Of a DNA stretch of 10,807 nucleotides, positions 1,424 to 4,803 are shown piece after piece. Below the pieces are notes generated by a model that was not told where the DNA came from, ran no database searches, and saw only the letters and a program-made list of their open reading frames with translations. The stretch comes from Pseudomonadota bacterium. GTDB lineage: Bacteria > CALINM01. The stretch lies in the NCBI GenBank assembly GCA_026415985.1, contig JAOAGA010000015.1, positions 1 through 10,807 of the forward strand, given 5' to 3'. The position numbers and the translations under genes are program-made. Every line of letters begins with the position of its first letter. The stretch's first letter is position 1.

Positions 1424-1478
1424 ATTAACTCTTGACCATTTTTAAAAGATTATATATAATAATATTTGAATTTTTAAA

Positions 1479-1654: not shown

Positions 1655-1936
1655 ATGAAAAATTTAAATGACTTTGAGGAGTATGCAGAAATACTAAAGG
1701 TAATTGGCCATCCTGTCAGGCTGACTATTCTTACAGGTTTAATGGAAAGAAAAAGCTGTGTTAAAGATATCTGGGATTGTTTGGGGTTACCTCAGGCGAC
1801 TGTATCACAACATTTATCAGTCCTGAAAAACAAAGGCATAATTAAATCAAAAAAAATTGGTGTAAAAAGAGAGTATTCCGTTGAAGACCCCTTTGTTAAA
1901 GAAATATTACAGATCCTGATTAAGGAGTCAAAATAA
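1655..1936 (+). CDS. ArsR/SmtB-family winged-helix repressor
   Basis: The 93-residue protein is a single winged-helix domain, the usual size for this family. ILKVIGHPVRLTIL (13-26) is the family N-terminal helix. The recognition helix is in LGLPQATVSQHLSVLKNKGI (43-62), and the wing follows around 64-75. Members are dimeric repressors released by metals, metalloids or oxidised/persulfidated cysteines. The classic ArsR metal box (CVCDL) is absent. Instead there are just two cysteines, C35 and C42, on the helix ahead of the recognition helix (KSCVKDIWDC), so the inducer could be thiophilic or redox-linked; this is inference. The start at 1655 is set by a strong Shine-Dalgarno. It is first in a four-gene operon with a TAATG overlap to the next gene, and so probably controls it and perhaps the divergent permease. 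Confidence 0.9.
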   Translation: MKNLNDFEEYAEILKVIGHPVRLTILTGLMERKSCVKDIWDCLGLPQATVSQHLSVLKNKGIIKSKKIGVKREYSVEDPFVKEILQILIKESK

Positions 1937-2340
1937 TGGATGAACTGTTAAATCTTATTAAAGAGTCAAAGAATATAGCCATTGTAGGTATCTCCAATGA
2001 TCCGGAAAAACCATCTTACAGGGTTGCAGAGTATTTAAAAAACAACGGATTTAGAATTATACCAATTAATCCTAAATACGATACCGTTCTTGGGGAAAGG
2101 TGCTACAAAAGTTTGACAGAAGTAGAAGAAAACATTGATATTATTGATGTTTTTAGAAGGAGCGAAGATATCCCAGAAATAGTAGAGGAAGCCCTGAAAA
2201 AGAGGCCTAAAATATTCTGGATGCAATTAGGTATAGAAAACAGCGAAGCAAAGAAGATGTTAGAGCAGAACGGTATTTATGTCGTTCAGAATTTATGTTT
2301 AAAAATATTTCATTCTTCCAATAGGGAGAAGCTTTTATGA
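1936..2340 (+). CDS. CoA-binding domain protein (YccU/COG1832-like)
   Basis: The 134-residue protein is a lone Rossmann-fold CoA-binding domain, full length for the family. IAIVGISNDPEKPSYRVAEYL (14-34) matches the glycine-rich nucleotide loop followed by the conserved Pro-Ser-Tyr region. IIPINPKY (41-48), IIDVFRRSEDIP (69-80) and FWMQLGIENSEA (94-105) match the other conserved strands. The C-terminal motif normally reads close to DRC followed by a short acidic stretch. Here it is VVQNLCLKIFH (116-126), keeping the cysteine (C121) but with Asn in place of Asp. The family is thought to bind CoA or acyl-CoA and its physiological role is poorly known. AAGGAG at 1922-1927 precedes the ATG, which overlaps the arsR stop by one base. 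The protein is cytosolic, with no signal or membrane segment. Confidence 0.88.
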   Translation: MDELLNLIKESKNIAIVGISNDPEKPSYRVAEYLKNNGFRIIPINPKYDTVLGERCYKSLTEVEENIDIIDVFRRSEDIPEIVEEALKKRPKIFWMQLGIENSEAKKMLEQNGIYVVQNLCLKIFHSSNREKLL

Positions 2341-2933
2341 AGAAGAGTTTCGATTTGAGAAACTTGGAATGTCCAAAGCCTGTTATTGAGACTAAAAAGA
2401 TAATCGAAGCTAATCCCAACGAGACTGTCGAGATTATATTAAACTCTTCCGTTGCAAAAGAAAATGTCCTGAGGCTTTTAAGATCTCTAAACATCGTGAC
2501 AAATGTTGAAAGTAAAGGAGAAGATATCGTTATTACTTTTAACTCTCCTATTACTGATTCAAAAGGTTTAAAGGAAGCAGATATTAACTGTTCAAGAGAA
2601 AATATGGCGAAAAATATAATTATATCTTCCAAAAGATTAGGGCAGGGAGATGAGAGGCTGGGAGAAATATTAATTAAATCATTCATTTATACCTTGTGTG
2701 AGAGAGAGATCAAACCTAAAAACATTTTTTTCGTTAACTCCGGAGTTTTTCTGACGGTAAAAGATTCTCCTGTAATTGAGGAATTAAAGAAGTTAGTTCA
2801 GGAAGGGACTAACATATTTTCCTGCGGTACCTGTCTTGATTATTACAATCTCAAAGATAAACTTGCCGTTGGTAAAATCGGAAATATGGGTATGCTCATT
2901 GATTTTCTCTACGACGAAGGAATAATATTATGA
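2337..2933 (+). CDS. yedF: YedF-type TusA-DsrE fusion (selenium/sulfur-metabolism protein)
   Basis: The 198-residue protein has two domains. Residues 4-70 form a TusA-like sulfur-carrier domain with the diagnostic LECPKP motif (C12 is the expected persulfide carrier). Residues 90-198 form a DsrE-like domain ending in SCGTCLDYYNLKDKLAVGKIGNMG (162-185). That C163-x-x-C166 pair and the following VG..NM stretch are hallmarks of the YedF family, which is described mainly from selenium-using genomes. Its exact chemistry is not established; it probably carries or delivers a reduced sulfur or selenium atom. C85 and C121 are additional cysteines. AGGGAG at 2323-2328 lies 8 nt before the ATG, and the start overlaps the previous stop as ATGA. 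No selD, selA or other selenium gene lies in the window, so a role limited to sulfur remains possible. Confidence 0.9.
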   Translation: MKKSFDLRNLECPKPVIETKKIIEANPNETVEIILNSSVAKENVLRLLRSLNIVTNVESKGEDIVITFNSPITDSKGLKEADINCSRENMAKNIIISSKRLGQGDERLGEILIKSFIYTLCEREIKPKNIFFVNSGVFLTVKDSPVIEELKKLVQEGTNIFSCGTCLDYYNLKDKLAVGKIGNMGMLIDFLYDEGIIL

Positions 2934-3091
2934 AAAAAGAGAATAATGAAGAAGAGTTTTATCTCTGCCATAAAACAGGGAAAAAGGTGTCTAAAAATAA
3001 TCCCGTATGTTTAAGTCCCAATATTTATTGCAAACACAGGCAGATGTGTGTAATATATGAACTCTACAAGAGAAACAAAAAATTAAAATGA
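2930..3091 (+). CDS. Small Cys/His-rich protein, 53 aa, function unknown
   Basis: This ORF begins with an ATGA overlap on the yedF stop. It has a good Shine-Dalgarno (AAGGA at 2917-2921, 8 nt before ATG) and ends at TGA 3089-3091. Those coupling signals match the rest of the operon and argue that it is a real gene despite its size. The 53 residues start acidic (MKKENNEEEF) and end basic (YKRNKKLK). Between them are four cysteines and two histidines: C13-H14, C27, C34, H36 and C40, with spacing C-x13-C-x6-C-x5-C. Such a set could bind zinc, iron or another soft metal, or act as a thiol/persulfide acceptor. I recognise no named family. There is no signal peptide or membrane segment. As the last gene of an arsR-CoA-binding-yedF operon, it is likely to serve the same sulfur/selenium-related job. 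Confidence 0.8.
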   Translation: MKKENNEEEFYLCHKTGKKVSKNNPVCLSPNIYCKHRQMCVIYELYKRNKKLK

Positions 3092-3103
3092 ACTAATTTT
3101 TAC

Positions 3104-3131
3104 TTGATTTTTATGAAGAAAAATATATAAT
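3104..3131 (+). promoter_or_regulatory. Sigma-70-like promoter of the sigma-54 activator gene
   Basis: TTGATT (3104-3109) and a perfect TATAAT (3126-3131) are separated by 16 bp in the 50-bp gap after the small Cys-rich gene. The predicted start near 3138 leaves only about 4 nt before the ATG at 3142, and there is no Shine-Dalgarno. The transcript would be leaderless or nearly so. Confidence 0.6.
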
Positions 3132-3141
3132 TTCAAATAAT

Positions 3142-4803
3142 ATGGAAGCTAATTTTATAGTAAACAACTTACATAAGATTGTTGAAGCCTCTGGAGACGT
3201 AAAAGAGCTTACAGGTCTTTCTCCCAATGAAGTTTTGGATAAGTATTGTTATGATGTTCTTACATCGGAGCTTTGTTTCAGAAACTGCCCCTATAATTAT
3301 GTAATCAGAAATAAAAAGACCTTTAAAAAAGATTCAATGAAGCTATACAACGAAGACGGCTCCTTTAAGGAAGTTAGTTATATAGTTTCTCCGGAATTAA
3401 ATGATCCAGAAAAAGTATCTATAAAATTAGTAAAAAATGGTGCAGGTATAAAATCTGATAATGATGATGTTTTTTCACACTCTTCCATGGAAAAAAAGCT
3501 TTTTCCAATAATTCTTGAGTCTGTTAATGACGGAGTTATAATCGTTGATAAAGATTTCAGGATTATTGAGTTTAATAAAGTTGCACAGGAACTGACGGGA
3601 TACAAAAAAGAAGAGCTATACGGGCAACCATGCCCCAATATTTGTTCCCTATCAAAAAGCTTTTCCTGTCCCTTTGATTTTTGTCTTAAGACAAATAATA
3701 CAGAAACAAAAATGCATACGATTATTAATAGAAAAAACGGGGATCCCATAATTGTAAACCTTAAGCTTAAATTAGTTTTTAATGAGTTAAATGAGCTAAT
3801 ATACGGAATAGCAATACTACAACAAGTTCTCGATATAATGCCACAGGAAAGTGAAAATTTTTATGGGATTATAGGAAGATCAAAGGAAATGAAGCTTATA
3901 CAGAAATCAATCAAGGTCGCTTCTATCTCTAACTCACCAGTCTTAATTACAGGAGAGAGTGGGGTAGGAAAAGAGCTTGTTGCCTCTGCTATACATAAAA
4001 TTCGTACATCGGAGAAAAAACCGTTTATTAAAATAAACTGTGCAGCACTACCGGAAACATTATTAGAGAGCGAGCTCTTTGGATATGAGAAAGGGGCCTT
4101 TACCAGCGCTAATATTTCTAAACCGGGCAAGTTTGAACTGGCAGAAGAGGGGACGATTCTACTGGATGAAATATCAGAAACATCAAAGACCTTTCAGGCT
4201 AAACTTCTTAGAGTTATTCAGGAAAGAGAGTTTGAGAGGTTAGGAGGAATTAATCCTATAAAGCTTAAAGCCCACATAATCGCAACAACAAATAAAGATT
4301 TAAAGCTTGAAATAGAAAAAGACAATTTCAGATCAGATCTTTTTTATCGGCTCAGTGGCTTTGTAATAAATGTTCCGCCTTTAAGAGAAAGACCTGAGGA
4401 CATACCTGTTTTAGCACAACATTTCCTGAATGAATTTATAAGAAATTACAATAGTAAATTGAATAAGAAGGTAATAGGGTTTTCTGAGGAGGCTTTAAGT
4501 ATGCTTCAGAATTATCCATGGCCGGGAAATGTCAGGGAACTAAAAAATACTATAGAAAGTATATATTTTTCAATACAGGAAGAAAAGATTAATATAACTC
4601 CCGAGGATCTTCCCGACTTCTTGAATGAGTATAAAAGAAATATAACAAAAAACCATTTTCCTGAAAGAGAAAAAATACTCAATGCCCTCAAATCAACAGG
4701 TTTTGATAAAACCAAGACTGCAAGACTGTTAGGCATCAGCAGGGTTACTCTCTGGCGAAAGATGATTCTTTACAATATAAAGATTGAAGACTTAGTTAAA
4801 TAA
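3142..4803 (+). CDS. Sigma-54-dependent transcriptional activator with two Cys-rich PAS domains
   Basis: The 553-residue protein has the order PAS (about 1-95), PAS (about 118-230), AAA+ sigma-54 interaction domain (about 243-470) and Fis-type helix-turn-helix (about 507-545). Walker A is GESGVGKE (271-278) and Walker B GTILLDEI (337-344). The arginine-finger region is FRSDLFYRL (396-404) and sensor II lies at WPGNVRELKN (460-469). The sigma-54-contact loop reads GAFTSA (318-323) instead of the usual GAFTGA. It should form an ATP-driven ring that remodels sigma-54 polymerase at distant promoters. Each PAS domain carries a cysteine cluster: C36, C45, C49 in the first and C164, C168, C176, C181 in the second. 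These suggest metal, Fe-S or thiol-based sensing; the ligand is not readable. There is no response-regulator receiver domain. The start lacks a Shine-Dalgarno, but PAS homology begins right after it and a promoter ends 10 nt upstream. The gene ends 8 bp inside the convergent exonuclease gene. Confidence 0.92.
   Translation: MEANFIVNNLHKIVEASGDVKELTGLSPNEVLDKYCYDVLTSELCFRNCPYNYVIRNKKTFKKDSMKLYNEDGSFKEVSYIVSPELNDPEKVSIKLVKNGAGIKSDNDDVFSHSSMEKKLFPIILESVNDGVIIVDKDFRIIEFNKVAQELTGYKKEELYGQPCPNICSLSKSFSCPFDFCLKTNNTETKMHTIINRKNGDPIIVNLKLKLVFNELNELIYGIAILQQVLDIMPQESENFYGIIGRSKEMKLIQKSIKVASISNSPVLITGESGVGKELVASAIHKIRTSEKKPFIKINCAALPETLLESELFGYEKGAFTSANISKPGKFELAEEGTILLDEISETSKTFQAKLLRVIQEREFERLGGINPIKLKAHIIATTNKDLKLEIEKDNFRSDLFYRLSGFVINVPPLRERPEDIPVLAQHFLNEFIRNYNSKLNKKVIGFSEEALSMLQNYPWPGNVRELKNTIESIYFSIQEEKINITPEDLPDFLNEYKRNITKNHFPEREKILNALKSTGFDKTKTARLLGISRVTLWRKMILYNIKIEDLVK

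Follow-up and report, generated by a model that had tools for sequence, protein, structure and literature searches.

A five-gene YedF block with a cysteine-bearing ArsR-family repressor and a cysteine-rich PAS regulator is conserved in two genera of one bacterial family

The window analysed here, a stretch of 10,807 nucleotides covering positions 1 to 10,807 of contig JAOAGA010000015.1 (assembly GCA_026415985.1, a Pseudomonadota bacterium), carries a block of five co-oriented genes encoding an ArsR/SmtB-family repressor, a CoA_binding_2 protein, the two-domain protein YedF, a 53-amino-acid mini-protein with four cysteines (Cys4), and a sigma-54-type activator. The same block is present in a second genus of the family, and the arrangement is more than chance: it is a real, conserved operon specific to this lineage. 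We tentatively propose, as a reading that is quite possible and yet short of probable, that it is a YedF-based chalcogen-carrier operon peculiar to this lineage, controlled by a thiol-responsive repressor and joined by a separately transcribed regulator with a cysteine-bearing PAS region.

Supporting the conservation, all five genes were confirmed at the coordinates and with the families given in Table 1, in agreement with an earlier note on this DNA that had described four overlapping genes followed after 50 bp by a co-oriented sigma-54 activator. The ArsR and CoA_binding_2 genes overlap by 1 nucleotide, CoA_binding_2 and yedF by 4 nucleotides, and yedF and the 53-amino-acid open reading frame (ORF) by another 4. 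The window belongs to a draft genome (G000; 1.57 Mb, 84% complete), and the collection searched holds only two relatives from the same family, G001 and G002, the remaining genomes being common with it at domain level only. In G002, from the other genus, all five genes recur at locus L033 with order and strand unchanged; protein identities to the window are 62% for ArsR, 48% for YedF, 50% for the mini-protein and 35% for the activator. Both ArsR cysteines are kept there, as are four of four in the mini-protein and seven of seven in the activator sensor region. Because the 53-amino-acid ORF is conserved at the same place in G002, it is very likely a real gene. In G001 a contig end interrupts the flanking exonuclease gene (C132:1-459), which puts the site of the block in an assembly gap; its absence from that genome is thus uninformative, and we rejected the interpretation that the block has been lost there.

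Table 1 Features of the five-gene block and its candidate promoters in the window
Feature	Coordinates	Strand	Basis
Candidate operon promoter, TTGACC-17-TATAAT	1432..1460	+	Best sigma-70-like match in the region, 11/12; consensus match only
ArsR/SmtB-family repressor, 93 aa, Cys35 and Cys42 in the alpha3 region	1655..1936	+	NF033788
CoA_binding_2 (COG1832/YccU-like) protein, 134 aa	1936..2340	+	PF13380
YedF, TusA (CPKP, Cys12) and DsrE-like (CGTC, Cys163/166)	2337..2933	+	TIGR03527
Cys4 mini-protein, 53 aa, C-x13-C-x6-C-x5-C	2930..3091	+	ORF conserved in G002
Candidate own promoter of the activator, TTGATT-16-TATAAT	3104..3131	+	10/12 consensus match, in the 50-bp gap
Sigma-54-type activator, 553 aa, Cys-rich PAS, AAA+ and Fis-type helix-turn-helix	3142..4803	+	PF13426, PF00158, PF02954

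The flanks bear on whether these genes form a functional module at all. An alternative that we judge unlikely is that housekeeping sulfur and coenzyme A (CoA) genes merely lie beside an unrelated activator, their order being kept by common descent. The block occurs in only two genomes of one family, its functionally unrelated right flank (a convergent exonuclease gene, rsmE, prmA and trxB) is common to the window and G002 as well, and in each genome a promoter-like site precedes the activator, all of which would suit this alternative. However, short translational overlaps still join the four genes, which have remained side by side, with identities of 48-62% for the proteins measured, and none of the other activators examined in these genomes shows the cysteine pattern of this one. 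The left flanks also differ: the window has a divergent gene that, from its sequence, resembles one for a membrane protein and is truncated at the window edge, and G002 has a CRP/FNR-like regulator gene. The conserved block therefore starts at ArsR.

Distribution was judged chiefly from a search of 386 genomes, in which YedF scored above the cut-off in 52 and CoA_binding_2 was present in 233. Among the matches listed, YedF and CoA_binding_2 were neighbours in G000 and G002 only, a count in which weak CoA_binding_2 neighbours could be missed. In a contig scan, YedF alone gave no match and an 18-row YedF alignment retrieved at least 80 loci, mostly from Bacillota. We further checked 109 YedF loci by tblastn, 80 of them from named genomes, again mostly Bacillota; outside the family, none of the 109 had ArsR, the CoA-binding protein and the mini-protein beside YedF. 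The usual neighbours at these loci were DUF3343 (47), a selenocysteine-lyase-like protein (30) and SelD (21). Conservation of the gene order, to which the earlier note had tied its interpretation, was thus found in the sister genus and, among the genomes and YedF loci examined, not beyond the family.

YedF is a full-length member of its family (TIGR03527, 204.8 bits against a cut-off of 110, positions 2-185 of 194; 205.7 bits for the G002 copy), and its C12-P13-x-P15 and C163-G-x-C166 motifs are invariant, apart from the variable x, in 18 aligned YedF sequences. In TusA and DsrE domains a cysteine serves as the sulfur carrier, and YedF is linked strongly with selenium genes; to our knowledge, it has no known biochemical role. 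The co-occurrence with selD raised in the earlier note is borne out: G000 contains selD (324 bits) with one in-frame TGA (L044:1501-2409, equivalent to G000:C33:19300-20208) and selA (378 bits). SelD is thus probably itself a selenoprotein in this organism, which, from selA and the TGA-containing selD, is predicted to use selenium. An association between YedF and SelD has already been published (Lin 2015, PMC5322559; Zhang 2008, PMC2432076), so the presence of selD adds no new link to the operon. Compared with the selenium neighbourhood of YedF/SirA-like proteins described in those two papers (SelD, selenocysteine-lyase-like, DUF3343 and LysR_Se), the window has the full two-domain YedF and a SelD-containing genome in common, whereas the usual partners are replaced by ArsR, CoA_binding_2, the Cys4 mini-protein and the Cys-PAS activator. 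We found no mention of ArsR, CoA-binding or sigma in the former paper and none of ArsR or sigma in the latter.

These data raise the alternative that the module is selenium-specific, with ArsR or the activator sensing selenium status and YedF delivering selenium to SelD or a selenoenzyme. The family link to SelD and a genome with selA and a probable selenoprotein SelD would fit, as would the rise of TusA/TusD-type transcripts by ~4.5 log2-fold in Methanococcus maripaludis on selenium depletion (PMC11097638). Yet the module is not beside selD, selA, a selenocysteine-lyase-like gene or DUF3343, although selD and selA are on separate contigs in this assembly, nothing in ArsR points to selenium, and G001 is of no use as a contrast with its site in an assembly gap. 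We consider this alternative distinctly improbable.

The CoA_binding_2 protein matches PF13380 over its full length (E 1.4e-42, positions 1-115 of 116). Its relatives in the PDB are named CoA-binding (the structures of PH1109 and TT1466 have been solved), making this 134-amino-acid protein a putative CoA binder by analogy. It carries C56 as well as C121. A cysteine aligned to C121 is present in PH1109, 2duw and TT1466, marking C121 as a general family trait. The earlier note had emphasized that every member of the block carries potentially reactive cysteines, and all of those it listed are present (C35/C42 of ArsR, C121 of the CoA-binding protein, C12/C163/C166 of YedF, four in the mini-protein and seven in the PAS region); because C121, CPxP and CGxC are common to their families, however, the pattern is in part mere family appearance.

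The mini-protein, with the motif C-x-K..C-x2-P-x3-C-K-x-R-x2-C-x-I, had no family match in profile searches, and its AlphaFold model from the single sequence (pLDDT, the predicted local distance difference test score, of 57) is too low in confidence to use. Its relatives are all distant, namely small Cys4 proteins encoded away from YedF and the B-box-like N terminus of RACo-type corrinoid activators. Two of the latter (L055:1-1647 and L058:1-1647) match PF17651, PF14574 and PF00111, with a weak PF00643 match in L055, and share the motif with the mini-protein; there the module belongs to a larger protein that also has 2Fe-2S and ASKHA domains, whereas here it stands alone in 53 amino acids.

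ArsR proteins commonly repress their own operons. The one in the window belongs to the metalloregulator subfamily of ArsR/SmtB (NF033788, 76.2 bits against a cut-off of 55), and its only cysteines are C35 and C42, with none after position 42. C35 aligns with the first cysteine of ELCVCDL metal sensors (CVCDI in Lmo1102), and the ELCVCDL-type metal site is incomplete, the sequence reading KSCVKDI with the first cysteine present and the second replaced by Lys. ArsR could accordingly be a metal or metalloid sensor that binds As(III), Cd, Zn or the like through C35/C42; the operon would then answer metal stress, and YedF, the CoA-binding protein and a zinc-knuckle peptide would serve to buffer thiols or metal. 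The best family match and the position of C35 argue for this, and two cysteines on one helix can bind soft metals. But the Lys at the second position argues against it, as do the relatives described below, which adjoin thiol reductases and not transporters; moreover, neither in the window nor in G002 did the operon or the genes right beside it include a recognisable gene for metal efflux, an arsenate reductase or a P-type ATPase. On balance, a metal sensor seems somewhat unlikely.

A cysteine pattern emerged from 31 related repressors (L210-L237). Cys34/35 is present in all but one, and its partner is wing Cys73 in 23, Cys42 in 7 and both in 1 (p 3e-6, kinship uncorrected), as expected if two cysteines act together; the window and G002 repressors are of the C42 type. 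Thioredoxin, thioredoxin reductase (TrxB) or CoA-disulfide reductase is encoded within 1.5 kb at 12 of 28 loci of this ArsR subfamily, compared with 4 of 92 controls (p 2.9e-6, kinship uncorrected). Two C42-type repressors adjoin a CoA-disulfide-reductase-like gene (L222, together with a rhodanese-domain protein, and L225), for which TIGR03385 is the best match, below its cut-off. Loci at which ArsR adjoins a CoA-disulfide-reductase-like gene or thioredoxin/TrxB (L222, L225 and L217, for example) resemble ours in having a related ArsR with the same N-terminal cysteine and thiol or CoA-thiol chemistry adjoining, with the difference that reductases there take the place of YedF and the CoA-binding protein here. 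The thiol reading of ArsR is a lead, not a result. Within this branch of repressors, CoA-disulfide-reductase-like genes or thioredoxin plus TrxB adjoin ArsR at L222, L225, L228 and L232 and at L215, L217 and L223, respectively.

The activator has the PAS-AAA+-Fis helix-turn-helix domain order of PAS-type sigma-54 activators, from which it differs in two sensor cysteine clusters, a GAFTSA loop and a degenerate motor in the sister genus. The seven cysteines of its PAS region (C36, C45, C49, C164, C168, C176 and C181) are arranged as C-x8-C-x3-C and C-x3-C-x7-C-x4-C. All seven are kept in G002, against identity at only 75 of the 238 positions aligned (p ~2.5e-4, naive), and the one further cysteine of the activator is not conserved. 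Such clusters occur in none of the other activators examined from the three genomes. The natural reading is that they would form a redox, iron-sulfur (Fe-S) or metal sensor. In the window protein, Walker A is intact (GESGVGKE), the arginine fingers are present (FRSDLFYRL) and GAFTSA replaces GAFTGA. Loops reading GAFTDA or GSFSGA occur in other activators of these genomes, so GAFTSA need not mean an inactive protein, and rpoN is present in all three genomes. The G002 activator (L033:5294-6994) instead reads GQTGTGKK, DAFEGA and NKDLYEII, with no arginine fingers, and keeps the sensor cysteines and the helix-turn-helix, which suggests that its sigma-54 function has decayed while its sensor has been retained.

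Consensus matches to promoters were also found in G002, with TTGACT-17-TATAAT just upstream of ArsR and TTGCAA-16-TATAAT at the counterpart of the activator gap. In both genomes, then, a promoter-like site stands in front of the activator, which appears to be transcribed separately. The earlier note had cast it as a wider output of the system; this idea is weakened by the promoter-like sites of the activator, by a search around the module that found no sigma-54 promoter and by the degenerate G002 AAA+ domain. An output through sigma-54 is doubtful in G002 in particular, because the activator there combines its own promoter-like site with a decayed motor. If 1432-1460 is the operon promoter, the leader is ~190 nucleotides long (window:1467-1654); a riboswitch was considered for it, and no Rfam match worth keeping was obtained.

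Based on these findings, we propose a plausible scheme for the YedF chalcogen-carrier reading. The CPxP and CGxC cysteines of YedF would hold its cargo, sulfane sulfur or selenium, as its domain families suggest. The CoA-binding protein may be the partner of YedF for a CoA-thiol, and the Cys4 mini-protein, a probable zinc knuckle, may be another partner. ArsR would repress its own operon and release it when C35/C42 are modified by persulfide, selenide or another thiol oxidant, a step modelled on the gene neighbours of related repressors. The activator would act as a separately transcribed regulator whose seven PAS cysteines sense redox state or a metal or Fe-S cluster; in the window protein the AAA+ motor seems fit to work with sigma-54, whereas the G002 protein, whose motor looks decayed, is probably a DNA-binding regulator that does not remodel sigma-54. 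A more elaborate version, which we regard as unlikely, would have two sensors in one chalcogen module: a C35/C42 repressor, its partner cysteine moved from the wing to alpha3, would respond to sulfane sulfur or selenium, bound to CoA or to protein and delivered by way of YedF, its CoA-binding neighbour and the mini-protein, and the Cys-PAS protein would have turned into a plain regulator in one genus after loss of its motor. More generally, the arrangement looks like another form of the YedF neighbourhood, one that includes two cysteine-bearing regulators and whose signal may be sulfur, selenium, redox or metal.

Several results weigh against the chalcogen-carrier reading. In the genomes examined the gene order is restricted to one family and two genera, and with two genomes only the order could be inherited and not selected. 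SelD, selenocysteine-lyase-like, DUF3343 and LysR genes, neighbours of YedF that are frequent without being obligatory, are not beside the module, either in L033 by tblastn or among the annotated genes of the window, which speaks against the selenium-specific alternative. Known sulfane-sulfur sensors of the SqrR/BigR/SoxR type have two conserved cysteines, Cys50/Cys116 in SoxR (PMC10451225). Together with sHdrR, treated in the same paper, they share with our repressor the ArsR fold, exactly two cysteines and an operon with a TusA-domain protein; the pair in the window, however, lies within one helix region and not at the SoxR positions. Membership of this group was rejected, since Thr stands where BigR has its alpha2 cysteine, the C-terminal part is free of cysteine, and the NF040642 match is 42 bits against a cut-off of 155. 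Most genomes of a large group around G310 (L238-L287) carry a close relative of the repressor, the copies inspected being of the C42 type, and its neighbours there, as read from sequence, are mostly biotin-synthesis-like (bioF/bioH/bioC) and oligopeptide-transport-like (opp-like ABC) genes, with rRNA-methyltransferase-like genes as well; at 0 of 30 C42-type loci of this group was thioredoxin, TrxB or CoA-disulfide reductase encoded within 1.5 kb. The earlier suggestion that the operon handles a sulfur, selenium or CoA-thiol species with ArsR as its switch is therefore favoured by the reductase neighbours of the subfamily and opposed by the Thr at the BigR position and by the G310 group. Nor did regulatory sites help: driving of the operon by the adjacent activator was rejected after a scan of the window and L033 gave no -24/-12 site at the threshold applied, and as an ArsR operator a 7-4-7 palindrome over the -10 element in G002 was dismissed (p 0.15 by shuffling, no perfect counterpart in the window).

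The operon gives YedF named partners and a built-in reporter promoter with which its cargo can be tested, and the placement of the second cysteine at C42 or at wing C73 provides a testable rule for thiol sensing in this branch of repressors. A thioredoxin reductase gene lies three genes away from the module in both genomes (window:7092-8006 and L033:2084-2992), a shared neighbourhood without evidence of co-regulation. The only other pairing of ArsR with yedF that we saw is in a metagenome-assembled genome of Peptococcaceae (L119:560-1539), where an ArsR gene lies directly upstream of yedF; it is probably independent or due to chance.

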